Assembly: GCA_021849595.1 (NCBI GenBank)
Contig: JAJZSR010000002.1
Span: 1 to 45,548, forward strand
Origin: Pseudomonadota bacterium
GTDB taxonomy: Bacteria; Pseudomonadota; Gammaproteobacteria; Burkholderiales; Thiobacillaceae
Direction of reading: 5' to 3'
Length of the DNA: 45,548 bases
The translations under genes were made by a program, and so were the position numbers. Shown here piece after piece: positions 20,173 to 26,836 of the stretch. How positions within the stretch are numbered: position 1 is the first letter of the stretch; the number at the start of each line of letters is the position of its first letter. The notes beneath the pieces were generated by a model that ran no database searches, was not told where the DNA came from, and saw only the letters and a program-made list of their open reading frames with translations.

Positions 20173-20292
20173 TCACAGCAGGCGGGTGAACAACTCGTAG
20201 GCCAGAACCGAAAGGATGCTGAACCAGGCCCAGACGATGAGGCCGGTAACGACGATGAGGGGGAGCTTCTGGGTGAGGAAGAACTTGTCCAT
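20173..20292 (-). CDS. 39-residue membrane peptide at the end of the cco operon
   Basis: I do not recognise this small gene. The 39-residue product begins MDKFFLTQKL. It has one hydrophobic helix of about 21 residues (roughly 11-31, PLIVVTGLIVWAWFSILSVL) and ends YELFTRLL. It starts 11 bases after ccoS and has a strong AAAGGA six bases before its ATG, overlapping the ccoS stop region, so it is very probably translated. Single-helix micro-subunits such as CcoM are known in some cbb3 oxidases; whether this is one is inference from size and position. Confidence 0.7.
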   Translation of the reverse strand: MDKFFLTQKLPLIVVTGLIVWAWFSILSVLAYELFTRLL

Positions 20293-20303
20293 GGCGCATC
20301 CTT

Positions 20304-20516
20304 TCAATCTTGAGGAATCTTATCCGAGCCGTCGGCCTTCTTCAATACACGGCGATTCTGCGGCAGCAGGGGGTCATCCTCGTCCATGAGGATACGCACC
20401 GCCGGGCCTTCCATGTCGTCGAACTGGCCGTTCTTTATCGCCCAAAACATGGCGACCAGCGCCTTGATGACGAACAGGCCGGAGAGGGAAAGCAGCAGCC
20501 AGAGTACGCCGCTCAT
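20304..20516 (-). CDS. ccoS: CcoS, cbb3 oxidase maturation protein
   Basis: A 70-residue protein with an N-terminal membrane helix and the CcoS segment MFWAIKNGQFDDMEGPAVRIL. CcoS is needed to insert heme and copper into the catalytic subunit CcoN. It starts in an ATGA overlap with the upstream FixH-domain gene and is followed after 11 bases by the 39-residue peptide gene. Confidence 0.92.
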   Translation of the reverse strand: MSGVLWLLLSLSGLFVIKALVAMFWAIKNGQFDDMEGPAVRILMDEDDPLLPQNRRVLKKADGSDKIPQD

Positions 20517-21286
20517 GGCACTTGTATGGTCCAGGAACGGTGCAGCACGGCCTGCCCCTTGCTTATGCGCATGTCGACGATCCAGCGGCCGGGGCCGTCG
20601 AAATCCAGAGTTCCTTCATAGGCATTGCCCTGCTCCTTGAACGCCACTGTGCTGGCTGCACCGCCCCCCGGTCTACTCACCGTCATGACGGCATCCAGGC
20701 CATGTACCCATAGGCTATCACTGTCCATGACCTTGATGTACACGGTGTTGGCGCCGCGGCGCGGCGCGGCCAGGCCCAGCACCTGCGCCTGCCAGCCCAG
20801 CGCCTGTTCGCGGTTGCTTTCGCTCAGCTCGGAGGCCACCGGGCTGGCCGCATCCTGGCCATGCTCGACCACCCCGGAAAAACCGGTGCGTATGGTCTTG
20901 TCGCCGGCATCGGGCAGGAAATAATGCACCCAGCCGCTGGGTATGCCCTGCGTGGAGACATAGAGAAAGCCGGCATTGAGCAGCACCAGGATGAAGACAT
21001 AGACCACAAAGGCCTTGGGTGCCCAATGCATTTTTTTCGTGCCGCTCTTGGCCTGCTGCTTGGCCATCACCACCATGACGAAGGCCGCCACCGCGAAGGT
21101 GGCGATATGCAGGCTCAGCACGTCCAGCCCCGGCCAGTAACGTACCGAGGCGACGGCATAGGCGATCAGCGGGAAGCCTGCCGCGACGATGCCGCGCAAG
21201 ACCGGCGGAATGCCCAGCCGGGCGCCGGCCACGAACAGCAGGATGACCGTAAACAGGCCACCGAACAGGGTCAGGAAAATGTTCAC
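20513..21286 (-). CDS. FixH-domain protein with an N-terminal four-helix membrane region
   Basis: A 257-residue protein. Its C-terminal half (about 180-257) looks like FixH/CcoH, a protein used in cbb3 oxidase assembly: a beta-rich periplasmic domain with LWVHGLDAVMTVSRPGGG and NAYEGTLDFDGPGRWIVDM. Ordinary FixH has a single N-terminal helix. Here there are about four (2-20, 29-48, 55-74 and 90-110), with a charged cytoplasmic stretch before the last. The GTG start at 21286 overlaps the ccoG stop in a GTGA and is preferred over the longer frame reaching 21343. The extra helices suggest a fusion with an unassigned membrane module. Confidence 0.75.
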   Translation of the reverse strand: MNIFLTLFGGLFTVILLFVAGARLGIPPVLRGIVAAGFPLIAYAVASVRYWPGLDVLSLHIATFAVAAFVMVVMAKQQAKSGTKKMHWAPKAFVVYVFILVLLNAGFLYVSTQGIPSGWVHYFLPDAGDKTIRTGFSGVVEHGQDAASPVASELSESNREQALGWQAQVLGLAAPRRGANTVYIKVMDSDSLWVHGLDAVMTVSRPGGGAASTVAFKEQGNAYEGTLDFDGPGRWIVDMRISKGQAVLHRSWTIQVP

Positions 21287-22734
21287 TCGTTGTCGCCGTC
21301 CGCCTCGCCCGCCGCGCTGAAGAAGCGCGCCACTCCCGTCCATGCCTTGTCCGGCTCCGAGCGCGGCGTGACGACGAAATGGAACCGGGAAATCTCCGCG
21401 GCCTGCTGGGGGCCCAGCCTCACCCAGGCATAGACCTCCACGCTGCGGCCGGTCTTGATGGGTACCTCATGGAAAGCCAGTTGCAGTGCCCCGACCGGCA
21501 GGCCTTGTGCGGAAATGGCATAGACCTCGTCGCGCCGCGAACTGTTGGTGATGCGGATGTGGTAGGCATCACGCACATCGCCGTTCGCCAGGGTGGTGTA
21601 CAAAGGCTGGCGCACCTGGTTCACCACCACCGCCAGGGGCTGGTGGGTGGCGATGTTGTAGACCAGAAAACCGATCATGAGCGCAAGCGCGATACCGTAG
21701 CCGATGACGCGGAAGTTGCGCAATTCGACGTGCGGCTTGGCCGGTACCGGCCGGGCCAGATTCTCCTCCGAATCATAGCGGATCAGCCCACGCGGGAAAC
21801 CCGCCGAGTCCATGATCTGATTGCAGGCGTCTATGCACAGGCCGCAGGAGATGCAGCGGTACTGCAAGCCGTCGCGGATATCGATGCCGGCCGGGCAGAC
21901 CTGCACGCAATAGCCGCAATCGACGCAATCGCCATGCCCCTGGGCATGCCGTTCTTCAAGCGTCTTGAGCCCCTGCCTGGGCACCAGGCGGCCCTTTTCG
22001 CCTTCGCCGCGGCGCACGTCATAATGCACCGCCAGAGTCTGAGGCGCGTACATCACGCTCTGGAAGCGTCCGTACGGGCAGACGAAGGCGCAAATTTGCT
22101 CGCGCATGAAGCCGGCAGCGAGATAAGTCGCGAGCGTGAGGATACCCGCGGTCATGTAGGCCGCAGGGGGTGCGGTGCCGATGAAGAACTCGCGCAGCAA
22201 CTGATCAGCAGGGGCGTAATAGACAACGAAGGTGAACGCGGTCCAGAAGGAAAGCAGCAGCCAGGCGACATGGGTGGCCCCCAGCTTGAGCGCCTTTTCC
22301 GCATTCCAGGGCTGCTTGTGCAGGCGGATGCGGGCGGGCCGCTCGCCCTGGATCTTGCTTTCGATCCAGATGAAAAAATCGGTCCACAGGGTCTGGAAAC
22401 AGTAATAGCCGCAGAACGCGCGCCCTACCAACCCGGTGACGAAGAACAGGAAGACGGCGGCGATGAACAGCAGCATGGCCAGCCACAACACGTCCTGCGG
22501 GTACATGACCAGATCAAAGACGTAGAAACGGCGGCCGGGGATGTCGAACAGAATGGGCTGCGACGGTCCGCCCTCGCGCGCCCAGGGCAGCCAGGGCAGC
22601 AGAAAATACACCGCATAGGCCAGCACCAGCATGCCCCATTTGAAGCGCCTGAACTTGCCTTTCACCGAGCGGGTGAAGATCGGCATGCGCTTTTGCGGCG
22701 CCGCCACCGCTTCCCCGTTCATACCTGCCTGCAC
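21283..22734 (-). CDS. ccoG: CcoG, cbb3 oxidase accessory ferredoxin-like protein
   Basis: CcoG (FixG/RdxA) is a membrane protein with two [4Fe-4S] clusters, implicated in copper reduction during cbb3 assembly. The 483-residue protein has cluster ligands Cys270, 273, 276, 280 and Cys294, 297, 300, 304. About five membrane helices lie in the N-terminal half, with CGYYCFQTLWTDFFIW and CAFVCPYGRFQ motifs, and a C-terminal Ig-like domain follows. GTG 22734 is favoured because GGAG lies six bases upstream; ATG 22722 is an alternative. It lies 61 bases downstream of ccoP, with a strong hairpin in the gap. No ccoI copper ATPase gene follows. Confidence 0.94.
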   Translation of the reverse strand: MQAGMNGEAVAAPQKRMPIFTRSVKGKFRRFKWGMLVLAYAVYFLLPWLPWAREGGPSQPILFDIPGRRFYVFDLVMYPQDVLWLAMLLFIAAVFLFFVTGLVGRAFCGYYCFQTLWTDFFIWIESKIQGERPARIRLHKQPWNAEKALKLGATHVAWLLLSFWTAFTFVVYYAPADQLLREFFIGTAPPAAYMTAGILTLATYLAAGFMREQICAFVCPYGRFQSVMYAPQTLAVHYDVRRGEGEKGRLVPRQGLKTLEERHAQGHGDCVDCGYCVQVCPAGIDIRDGLQYRCISCGLCIDACNQIMDSAGFPRGLIRYDSEENLARPVPAKPHVELRNFRVIGYGIALALMIGFLVYNIATHQPLAVVVNQVRQPLYTTLANGDVRDAYHIRITNSSRRDEVYAISAQGLPVGALQLAFHEVPIKTGRSVEVYAWVRLGPQQAAEISRFHFVVTPRSEPDKAWTGVARFFSAAGEADGDNE

Positions 22735-22795: not shown

Positions 22796-23722
22796 CTATT
22801 GACCGCCGCCCAGATTATGAACGTAGAAGGTCAGTACCTTGATGTCCACCGGCGAGAGCCGGTCGCCCCACGCCGGCATGACACCCTTGTTCACGCCATT
22901 GTAGATGACCTTGCGGATGGCCTCGATCTTGCCTTGTGCGGTGCGGTGGGCAGGAACGTCGGCCCACAGCCAGATTTGGTCGGTCAGATTGGGAGCGCCG
23001 ATCACATGGCGGCCGGTGGCCTGCTCGCCATGGCAATAGAAGCACCCTGCCGTGTCGGAGTGGAACAGATGCTTGCCCGCGGCGACCTTGGCAGGGTCTG
23101 CCGGGATGCCCGACAGGCTCGCCACATAGTTGGCGAGATCGTCGATCTGCGCCGGTTCCAACACCTCGCCGAAGGTGGGCATGTAGCCGTGGCGGCCGTC
23201 GGTGATGGTGTAAGCGATCTGCGCGTAATGGCCGCCGTAGAGCCAGTCGTCATCCGTCAGGTTGGGGTAGTGGCCGACCAGCCCTTGGCCCCCGGTCTGG
23301 TGGCAGGAGGCGCAGTTGTTCTCGAACAGCGAATGGCCGGTCGCCATGACGAAGTTTTCCAGCTCGGGATCCTTGGCGATCTGTTCGTAGGGGGTGGCCA
23401 TGACCTTGTCGAAAAAAGGCTTCTGGAAAGCCGTGGCCTTGTTCATGTCCTCCATCAGGAGCGCGCGCGTATTCCAGTGGCTGGTGACCTTCTGGCCGGC
23501 CTTATCCACGTAAGTGATGGTATCGAAGCCCCTGGTGTAGGTGTTGCCGATAGGCCAGGCGGGGTAAATGAGCCAATAGCCGATGGCGAAGATGATGGTC
23601 GCGAAAAACGTGTACACCCACCAGGTCGGCAAGGGGTTGTTGAACTCCTGCAGATCGCCATCCCACACGTGTCCCGTGGTCTGCACCGCTTGCTGGCTCT
23701 GTTGGCTTGGGTTTTGGCTCAT
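22796..23722 (-). CDS. ccoP: CcoP, diheme cytochrome c subunit of cbb3 oxidase
   Basis: This subunit passes electrons into the oxidase. The 308-residue protein has a membrane helix at about residues 34-54. Two cytochrome c domains follow, with heme motifs CASCH (137-141) and CFYCH (227-231) and probable axial methionines in GYMPTFG and GVMPAWG. It is in the order N-O-Q-P, 12 bases after ccoQ. Confidence 0.96.
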   Translation of the reverse strand: MSQNPSQQSQQAVQTTGHVWDGDLQEFNNPLPTWWVYTFFATIIFAIGYWLIYPAWPIGNTYTRGFDTITYVDKAGQKVTSHWNTRALLMEDMNKATAFQKPFFDKVMATPYEQIAKDPELENFVMATGHSLFENNCASCHQTGGQGLVGHYPNLTDDDWLYGGHYAQIAYTITDGRHGYMPTFGEVLEPAQIDDLANYVASLSGIPADPAKVAAGKHLFHSDTAGCFYCHGEQATGRHVIGAPNLTDQIWLWADVPAHRTAQGKIEAIRKVIYNGVNKGVMPAWGDRLSPVDIKVLTFYVHNLGGGQ

Positions 23723-23734
23723 CTAAGACGCTTC

Positions 23735-23908
23735 CTATCGCTTGTCGTCGTCGTCAGAAAAAATCATGTTCTTGTGCGATTCGATGCGCTTGCCGCGCGC
23801 GCTGCTGCCATAGACGTAATAGCTGATGCCTACGAACAGCACCACCAGTATGACCAGCACCAGAGGCTGGGTATGGTCGAATTTGGTGAACCACATGAAC
23901 CATTCCAT
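23735..23908 (-). CDS. ccoQ: CcoQ, small subunit of cbb3 oxidase
   Basis: This 57-residue peptide begins MEWFMWFTKFD and has one membrane helix at about residues 15-33. A basic stretch (RGKRIESHK) follows, with an acidic tail SDDDDKR. Size, topology and position between ccoO and ccoP identify CcoQ, which stabilises the complex. GGAGG lies four bases before the ATG. Confidence 0.88.
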   Translation of the reverse strand: MEWFMWFTKFDHTQPLVLVILVVLFVGISYYVYGSSARGKRIESHKNMIFSDDDDKR

Positions 23909-23925: not shown

Positions 23926-24675
23926 TCAGCGATCCTTGACGAGCTGGTTTTCGTTGACCTTGTTCCAGTCCACCTGATTGCCCAGGCCCTGCAGATAGGC
24001 GACGACGGCATCCATCTCCGTGATGGGGCCGTTCTTGCGCCCGTCATAATCGTTGGCGTTGGCCTGTTCGATCATGCTCTGCTGGGCATCGGGGATGTAA
24101 TACTGCTTGGCCAGCTCGGGGCCAAATTTTTTCACGTCGGCCTCGTATTCCTGCTTGGTCAGCGCATAGGGCACGCCGACGTCGCGCAAGGCCTTCATGC
24201 GCGCCCCGATGTCGGACATATCCAGCGGCGTAGTAGCCAGCCAGGGGAAGCCAGGCATGATGGATTGCGACACCACCGAGCGCGGATCGATCAGGTGCTG
24301 CACGTGCCAGGCGTTGGAATATTTGCCGCCGATGCGCGCCAGATCGGGGCCGGTACGCTCGGAACCCCATAGGAAGGGGTGGTCGTACTGCGACTCGGCG
24401 GCCAGGGAATAGTGGCCGTAGCGCAGTTCCTCGTCGCGGAAGGGACGAATCATCTGCGAGTGGCAATAGAAGCAGCCGTTATCCTGGTAAATGTCGCGGC
24501 CGCGCAGTTCCAGGGGTGTATAGGGGCGCGGGCCGGCCACGTTCTCCACCGTGCCCTTGATGAAGAACAGCGGGATGATTTCCACCATGCCCGCCACGCT
24601 GATGGCCAGCATGGTGATCACCACCATGAGGCCGATGTTGGTTTCGATCCACTCGTGCTTGAAGCCCAGTTTCAT
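23926..24675 (-). CDS. ccoO: CcoO, monoheme cytochrome c subunit of cbb3 oxidase
   Basis: The 249-residue subunit has an N-terminal membrane anchor (about 15-38) and one heme c motif, CFYCH at 68-72, followed by SQMIRPFRDEELRYG, which is typical of CcoO. The probable axial methionine is in SIMPGFPWL. CcoO transfers electrons from CcoP to the catalytic subunit. It lies 20 bases after ccoN and 17 before ccoQ. Confidence 0.96.
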   Translation of the reverse strand: MKLGFKHEWIETNIGLMVVITMLAISVAGMVEIIPLFFIKGTVENVAGPRPYTPLELRGRDIYQDNGCFYCHSQMIRPFRDEELRYGHYSLAAESQYDHPFLWGSERTGPDLARIGGKYSNAWHVQHLIDPRSVVSQSIMPGFPWLATTPLDMSDIGARMKALRDVGVPYALTKQEYEADVKKFGPELAKQYYIPDAQQSMIEQANANDYDGRKNGPITEMDAVVAYLQGLGNQVDWNKVNENQLVKDR

Positions 24676-24695: not shown

Positions 24696-26186
24696 TCAGA
24701 CACCGGCCCCGGCAAGGCCGCCGGCGGCCAGTGCCTGCCTCTCCTCGCGCTTGCCCTGCAGGATAGTCATGGTGACGTTGAAGACCATCACCAGCACGCC
24801 GCTGAGGAAGAACACCCCGCCGATCATGCGCATCACATAGAAAGGATGGATGGCCGCCACGGATTCGATGAAGGAGTACTGCAGGTTGCCGAACTGGTCA
24901 TAAGCGCGCCACATGAGGCCCTGGGTGATGCCGGAAATCCACATGGCGACGATGTAGAGAACGATACCTATGGTGGCCAGCCAGAAGTGGACGGCGGCCA
25001 GGCGCACGCTGTAGAGGCGGGTATTCCAGAGCTTGGGAATGAGGTGATATAGCGAGCCGAAGGAAATCATTGCGACCCAACCCAGCGCACCGGAATGCAC
25101 GTGGCCCACCGTCCAGTTGGTGTAGTGCGAAAGCGCATTGACTTCCTTGAGCGCCATCATCGGCCCTTCGAAAGTGGACATGCCGTAGAAGGACAGTGCC
25201 ACGATCATGAAGCGCATCACCGGGTCGGTGCGCAGCTTGTCCCACGCGCCCGACAGGGTCATGATGCCGTTGATCATCCCGCCCCAGGAAGGCATGAGCA
25301 GGAGGATGGAGAAGGTCGCGGCCAGCGTCGAAGTCCAGTCGGGCAGGGCCGTCCAATGCAGATGGTGCGCACCCACCCACATGTACATGAAAGCCAGCGC
25401 CCAGAAGTGGACGATGGACAGACGGTAGGAATAAATCGGCCTGCCGGCCTGCTTGGGCACGAAGTAATACATCATCCCCAGGAAGGCCGCCGTGAGATAG
25501 AAGCCCACCATGTTGTGGCCGTACCACCATTGGGTCATGGCGTCCTGCACCCCGGAGAACAGGGAGTAGGACTTCATCGAGAACATGCTCACCGGGATGG
25601 CCAGGTGGTTGAAGACATGCAGGATGGCCACGGCCAGTATGAAGGCGAGGTAGAACCAGTTGGCCACATAAATGTGCGGCTGCTTGCGGCGCATGATGGT
25701 GCCGATGAAGAGATTCATGTACACCACCCACACCACCAGGATCAAGAGCGCGAGGGGCCACTCCATCTCCGCATATTCGCGCGAGGTCGTGTGCCCCATC
25801 ATGTAGGAGGCATCGGCCAGGATGACGCAGGCCTGCCAGCCCCAGAAGGTGAAGCTCGCGGCGAAGTCGGAAATCAAGCGCGCTTGGCAGGTGCGCTGGA
25901 CGATGTAATAGGAAGTAGCGAAGAGTGCGCTGCCGCCGAAACCGAGGATGACCGAGGTGGTGTGCACCGGCCGGAAGCGGCCGAATTCGATGTAGGGGAT
26001 GCCGAAGTTAAGGAAAGGCCAAGCCAACTCGGAAGCGATATAGACGCCTACCGACATCCCCACCACCGCCCACACCAGGGTCATGATGGTGAATTTCTTA
26101 ACTATATCGAAATTATATTCTTCGACGCCAGCGGCGGCGCGATCTGCGCCAAGGGCATACGGGCTGGCTGCTGCAACTGAGGACAT
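24696..26186 (-). CDS. ccoN: CcoN, catalytic subunit I of cbb3 cytochrome c oxidase
   Basis: CcoN reduces oxygen at a heme b3-CuB centre, giving high-affinity respiration coupled to proton pumping. The 496-residue protein has about 12 helices. Metal ligands are visible: His75 (RPVHTTS) for the low-spin heme, His224 (YGHN) and His274-His275 for CuB, and His362 and His364 (GHVHSG) for the hemes. The [14 protein letters not shown] segment contains the tyrosine region typical of cbb3 enzymes. The gene opens the cco operon behind a 154-base regulatory gap and has a GGGAG ribosome site. Confidence 0.97.
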
Positions 26187-26340: not shown

Positions 26341-26811
26341 TCACGCCACGGCGTCGAGTTCCGGGAACAGTTTCAACGGTACATCGGCAAGGCGGTATTT
26401 GCCCGATTTCACGGCCTCGGACAGCTTGTCCAGCGTGGTTTCGTTGAGCAGTTCGATGATGCGCTCCTTCACCGGCACCCAACGGAAATGCAGCGGGCAG
26501 GCCGTCTCCTTGGAACACTGCTTGAGGCCCAGGAGGCAGCTCTTGGTGAAAGTCGGCCCTTCCGTGAGCACCAGGATGTCCATCAGGCTGGTGCGCAAAC
26601 CCTCCGGGCGCAGACAGAACCCCCCCAGCCGCCCACGGAAGGATTCCAGCAGATTTCCCTTGGCCAGGGATTGCAATATCTTAGCCAGGTAGGGCGCAGG
26701 CACATTGAGGCGGGCGGCCACGTCCTTGTTCAGGATCGGCTGCCCAGGTTCCTGGGTGGCCATATAAATCATGGCCTGAACGGCGTATTGGCTGGTGCGT
26801 GAAAGGATCAT
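26341..26811 (-). CDS. Rrf2-family regulator with probable Fe-S cluster
   Basis: A 156-residue winged-helix regulator. The N-terminus MILSRTSQYAVQAMIYMA and the recognition region VPAPYLAKILQSLAKGNLL are Rrf2-type. Three cysteines, Cys92, Cys99 and Cys105 (SCLLGLKQCSKETACPLH), occupy the cluster-ligand region used by IscR and NsrR. It probably senses iron-sulfur status, oxygen or nitric oxide. It is encoded immediately upstream of the cbb3 operon on the same strand, which suggests it controls that operon. ATG 26811 matches family N-termini; a TTG at 26826 would add five residues. Confidence 0.88.
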   Translation of the reverse strand: MILSRTSQYAVQAMIYMATQEPGQPILNKDVAARLNVPAPYLAKILQSLAKGNLLESFRGRLGGFCLRPEGLRTSLMDILVLTEGPTFTKSCLLGLKQCSKETACPLHFRWVPVKERIIELLNETTLDKLSEAVKSGKYRLADVPLKLFPELDAVA

Positions 26812-26836
26812 GCGCTGATCCGCCAAGAATAATCCA

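Follow-up and report, generated by a model that had tools for sequence, protein, structure and literature searches.

A conserved 39-residue, single-helix micro-protein encoded at the end of a cbb3 oxidase operon in Thiobacillaceae: a candidate small subunit of one oxidase clade

The micro-gene and the operon that it closes

Cytochrome cbb3 oxidases, encoded by cco genes, are the main high-affinity oxygen reductases in many proteobacteria. Directly behind ccoS in the cco operon of a Thiobacillaceae bacterium (assembly GCA_021849595.1, contig JAJZSR010000002.1, positions 1 to 45,548; we refer to this whole 45,548-nucleotide stretch as the window) lies a short minus-strand frame, here called the micro-gene, whose 39-amino acid product is MDKFFLTQKLPLIVVTGLIVWAWFSILSVLAYELFTRLL. 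We report that this frame is conserved across many bacterial families, closes the cbb3 operon in numerous beta- and gammaproteobacteria, and accompanies one clade of the oxidase protein CcoN, and we consider its product, the micro-protein, to be probably a small structural subunit of the corresponding oxidases.

The frame runs from an ATG at 20292 to a TGA at 20175-20173, starting 11 bases past the ccoS stop codon (20306-20304) and behind a Shine-Dalgarno-like hexamer. An upstream in-frame TTG can also be reached with the frame staying open that far; we take the ATG as the start because homologues favor ATG, only rarely using GTG. A GGAG-like site precedes most of them. The product is predicted to form one helix spanning residues 2-38 (mean predicted local distance difference test score, pLDDT, 86.5); its hydrophobicity reaches a maximum of 2.4 in the stretch from residue 12. 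The genes ccoN-O-Q-P-G-H-S all lie on the same strand as the micro-gene, which is therefore the last gene of the operon (Table 1); hemW is convergent downstream of it. Immediately 3' of the micro-gene, we found neither a match to a terminator consensus nor an unusual fold. These results bear out a preliminary description of the locus, which had recognized a 39-residue single-helix membrane peptide at this distance from the ccoS gene of a cbb3 operon, with AAAGGA at six-base spacing; the sequence places the frame on the minus strand.

Table 1. Features of the cco operon in the window, with coordinates, strand, and the basis for each assignment
Feature	Coordinates	Strand	Basis
Micro-gene; 39 aa, single predicted transmembrane helix, last in cco operon	20173..20292	-	Open frame, conservation, dN/dS 0.17, one helix
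Shine-Dalgarno-like AAAGGA, six bases 5' of the ATG, overlapping the ccoS stop codon	20299..20304	-	Sequence; GGAG/AAGG-type sites ahead of most homologues
ccoS (FixS), cbb3 assembly protein	20304..20516	-	FixS PF03597 2.9e-18; TIGR00847 above cut-off
ccoH/FixH-like gene	20513..21286	-	Weak FixH match, below cut-off
ccoG (4Fe-4S, FixG_C)	21283..22734	-	
ccoP	22796..23722	-	
ccoQ (FixQ)	23735..23908	-	
ccoO (FixO)	23926..24675	-	
ccoN, in the CcoN clade co-occurring with the micro-protein	24696..26186	-	

A conserved gene family centered on one bacterial class

Short frames are common, and 150 stop codons in the window have an ATG 30-45 codons upstream, so a chance open frame had to be considered; a Shine-Dalgarno-like site combined with a membrane-like stretch was found for only 2 of these, including the micro-gene. 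Two other genomes of the window's genus carry peptides 92% and 85% identical to it, and an in-frame match is present in most of the family: profile A1 matched 110 of 117 Thiobacillaceae genomes at an expect value (E) of 1 or better, or 101 of 117 once nine weak matches were dropped. Over 38 independent pairs of homologues, the pooled ratio of nonsynonymous to synonymous change (dN/dS) was 0.17, with synonymous differences at 305 of 893 sites, nonsynonymous differences at 210 of 2863, and 151, 62, and 302 differences at codon positions 1, 2, and 3, respectively. Judged from these substitution patterns, the 39-codon frame is a real gene under purifying selection, because it is conserved across families and has a dN/dS of 0.17; the same two observations refute a chance frame, to which we give practically no weight. 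The conservation and substitution check proposed in the preliminary description thus came out in favor of a gene.

Among 117 distinct peptides, conservation centers on a core motif, N-L-P-M ... L-I ... W-x-W-x-S-x-x-S-V, within which P11 (98%), L18 (92%), W23 (94%), S25 (93%), S28 (92%), and V29 (90%) stand out. Profile searches recovered 42 strong carriers (E below 1e-5) among 300 genomes sampled from the order and, besides the window's own genome, 53 carriers (E below 1e-4) among 369 genomes sampled from the class. In a sample of 78 genomes from the phylum, one weak match (E 7.6e-4) was found beyond the window's own genome, and at this low power the family looks mainly confined to the class.

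Database comparisons gave the family no name. None of 42 diverse members matched an NCBIfam family or the Pfam family of CydX (YbgT_YccB), and a single one had a marginal, chance-level Pfam match (E 0.051). A profile search of the PDB returned only weak matches to mineralocorticoid-receptor stretches (E 0.08-0.4), which we take as chance, and 5djq, the entry containing the one-helix oxidase protein CcoM, was not among the matches. A plasmid collection held no match to the micro-protein, and we found no published description of the micro-gene in the open-licence literature. The micro-protein represents a new, unnamed family of a known functional kind.

Association with one CcoN clade and with the end of the cco operon

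The link to the cbb3 oxidase that the preliminary description had suggested is strengthened by co-occurrence. In the class sample, ccoN was found in all 53 carriers and in 172 of 315 non-carriers (Fisher p 3e-13); in the order sample it was found in 40 of 42 carriers, and in both exceptions (G149 and G236) cco genes lie beside the micro-gene and run to the contig end. Two ccoN genes are common among carriers, and a CcoN tree of 106 rows separates them: 35 sequences from operons linked to the micro-gene and 6 from carriers with solo micro-genes, which lie away from cco, group into a single clade that comprises exactly these 41 rows (Shimodaira-Hasegawa-like approximate likelihood ratio test, SH-aLRT, 99). 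This clade contains none of 52 non-carrier CcoN sequences and none of 13 other CcoN sequences of carriers. We link the micro-protein to the cbb3 oxidase because of its operon position, its co-occurrence with ccoN, and its exact tracking of one CcoN clade. Its presence may also serve as a marker separating cbb3 lineages that often coexist in one genome.

Outside this clade, cco loci are present in peptide-negative genomes of other lineages, where CcoN is 52-64% identical to that of the window, and these genomes gave no significant match to the micro-protein family profile. The gene ccoS could be traced in 22 operons of other lineages, and in none of them did we find it followed by an open reading frame for a membrane micro-protein with a ribosome site, whereas the same script was positive in 72 of 80 linked loci. 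A separate cbb3 lineage (loci L310-L340) has ccoN-O-P-G and usually ccoS without the micro-protein, and its CcoP is about 29-40% identical to that of the window.

Linkage to the operon is widespread. At the order level and outside Thiobacillaceae, cco genes lie upstream on the same strand in 32 of 40 loci, usually with ccoS last and ending between a few dozen and 300 bases ahead of the micro-gene; four of these 32 have ccoS but no ccoNOP within the fetched stretch. At the class level, same-strand cco genes lie upstream in 17 of 20 loci. Tandem duplicates of the micro-gene follow ccoS in loci L172 and L173 (genomes G150 and G366) and lie beside a convergent rpoH in L251 (G496). A relative of the window's genus (G002) carries a second copy, 82% identical, on a 6.2 kb contig (L053) where ccoS and rpoH were not found; contamination of this genome (5%) is a possible source.

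The recurrence of ccoS as the neighboring gene raises the main rival of a subunit, a late assembly role beside CcoS, in which the helix would help CcoS (and CcoI/CcoH) to insert haem or copper into oxidases of this clade and then leave the finished enzyme. The micro-gene follows ccoS nearly everywhere, and in one family (f26; loci L178, L179, L183, and L197) a ccoS-peptide pair convergent to rpoH stands without ccoNOP in the 14 kb that were fetched, both as expected of an assembly factor. However, the other examined cbb3 lineages also have CcoS, but the peptide follows a single CcoN clade, and in several Thiobacillaceae genera the micro-gene lies apart from ccoS, which leaves an assembly factor a possible but doubtful explanation. 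In three of the f26 loci (L178, L179, and L197), the ccoS-peptide pair comes after a gene for a dynamin-like GTPase.

A second recurrent neighbor is the heat shock gene rpoH, convergent about 180-250 bp downstream of the micro-gene in most loci, including loci without cco. Such proximity would be expected if the micro-gene were functionally tied to rpoH and had merely inherited its cco neighborhood. Within Thiobacillaceae, three arrangements occur: the micro-gene linked to the cco operon with rpoH downstream; a solo micro-gene beside rpoH with cco elsewhere, which is true of most genera; and, in the window's genus, the micro-gene linked to ccoS and next to hemW, away from rpoH. The window's genus separates the two neighbors, the micro-gene staying with the oxidase operon and not with rpoH. 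A tie to rpoH would also leave the tracking of a CcoN clade unexpected, and second copies of the micro-gene lie away from rpoH; we regard it as very unlikely.

These second, solo copies (L165, L167, L169, L171, L176, L180, L189, and L191) lie away from both cco and rpoH, with neighbors that vary by lineage. Together with the single hydrophobic helix, their existence could be taken to indicate that the product is a small membrane peptide acting on its own, in stress or in a toxin-like way, and cotranscribed with the operon by chance. The micro-gene is strictly conserved as the last gene of one operon and in company with one CcoN clade, which argues against this, and we consider such a role slightly more improbable still than a tie to rpoH.

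A candidate micro-subunit of the cbb3 oxidase

CcoM is reported to stabilize the Pseudomonas stutzeri cbb3 oxidase, and its gene presumably lies outside the cco operon. The micro-protein resembles CcoM in having one helix, a similar length, and a cbb3 association, which here is genetic; unlike CcoM, it has the NLPM...W-W-S core. CcoM is called a subunit of the oxidase (PMC10433244) and corresponds to the 36-amino acid chain N of PDB 5djq, from work of Kohlstaedt (2016) that both PMC10433244 and PMC9264385 describe. In an hhalign comparison with this chain, the micro-protein (A2) gave a probability of 0.2 and one aligned column, and we reject homology. The comparison with CcoM drawn in the preliminary description therefore holds as an analogy and fails as sequence similarity, of which hhalign detected none.

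A second parallel comes from cytochrome bd oxidases, where CydX is tied to one catalytic-subunit class (long Q-loop CydA) and has orphan copies outside the operon (PMC4325964). Like CydX, CydY, and CydZ (PMC4325964), the micro-protein has its gene within or next to the operon of an oxidase; its tie to one catalytic-subunit class and its occasional orphan copies parallel CydX. Cytochrome bd belongs to a different oxidase superfamily. Two candidates from the cco operon itself were rejected. CcoQ/FixQ is likewise a small one-helix component, but the micro-protein has no FixQ (PF05545) match and the window has a separate ccoQ. CcoS/FixS is likewise small, membrane-bound, and encoded next door, but the micro-protein has no FixS match, lacks an acidic C-terminal tail, and accompanies one CcoN clade only. 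In size and shape (about 30-50 amino acids, one transmembrane helix) and in its linkage to and co-occurrence with one oxidase class, the micro-protein has the properties of a terminal-oxidase micro-subunit.

We therefore favor, with a probability of roughly three in four, a single-helix small structural subunit that stabilizes one cbb3 clade, or possibly a late-assembly helper. The micro-protein would be expressed from the final gene of the cco operon, its helix would pack against the membrane part of oxidases of this one clade, and its most likely effect would be to stabilize the complex. Binding to CcoN, CcoO, or CcoP and the stabilizing role are inferred. Several points weigh against a subunit. 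The remaining 8 of the 40 order-level loci are the second solo copies, all in genomes that also have a cco-linked copy, and in most Thiobacillaceae genera the micro-gene stands apart from cco, as described above. The CcoN tree was a quick search in which the non-carrier rows are a chosen sample, and clade members without the peptide were not searched for exhaustively. We found no significant periodicity in residue conservation along the helix (p 0.13-0.57) and for this reason claim no interface. On the supporting side, one Thiobacillaceae genome of 97% completeness (G014) has no haem-copper oxidase (PF00115) at all, yet keeps the peptide frame. In this peptide S25, S28, and V29 are all replaced, and it alone among the 117 deviates at more than one of the six core positions; the change agrees with a relaxation of constraint once the partner was lost, although this is a single case.

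More broadly, the odds seem about even that a further structural subunit defines a cbb3 clade in beta- and gammaproteobacteria, having arisen independently of CcoM, and that this oxidase family has recruited one-helix micro-subunits more than once, much as cytochrome bd did with CydX, CydY, and CydZ. To our knowledge, the available cbb3 structures all come from lineages outside the clade of the micro-protein. If the micro-protein is a subunit, then subunit lists, purifications, and models are incomplete for many environmental proteobacteria, including sulfur oxidizers such as Thiobacillus.

The operon of the window has further features of its own. The gene in the ccoH position encodes 257 amino acids and evolves faster than its neighbors, its counterparts in other genera and families being about 21-45% identical. 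The copper ATPase gene ccoI is absent between ccoH and ccoS (20304-21286), as it is in related Thiobacillaceae operons; a CcoI-type copper ATPase with CPC and DKTGT motifs lies between these two genes in the three non-Thiobacillaceae micro-protein operons inspected directly. We detected no FNR box ahead of the window's ccoN, and near solo micro-gene copies FNR boxes were found in 2 of 20 cases against 0.46 expected, too few to argue from. A gene for an Rrf2-type regulator (26341-26826) shares the strand of ccoN and lies immediately upstream of it, and a 61% identical Rrf2-type regulator is also encoded upstream of cco in locus L162.
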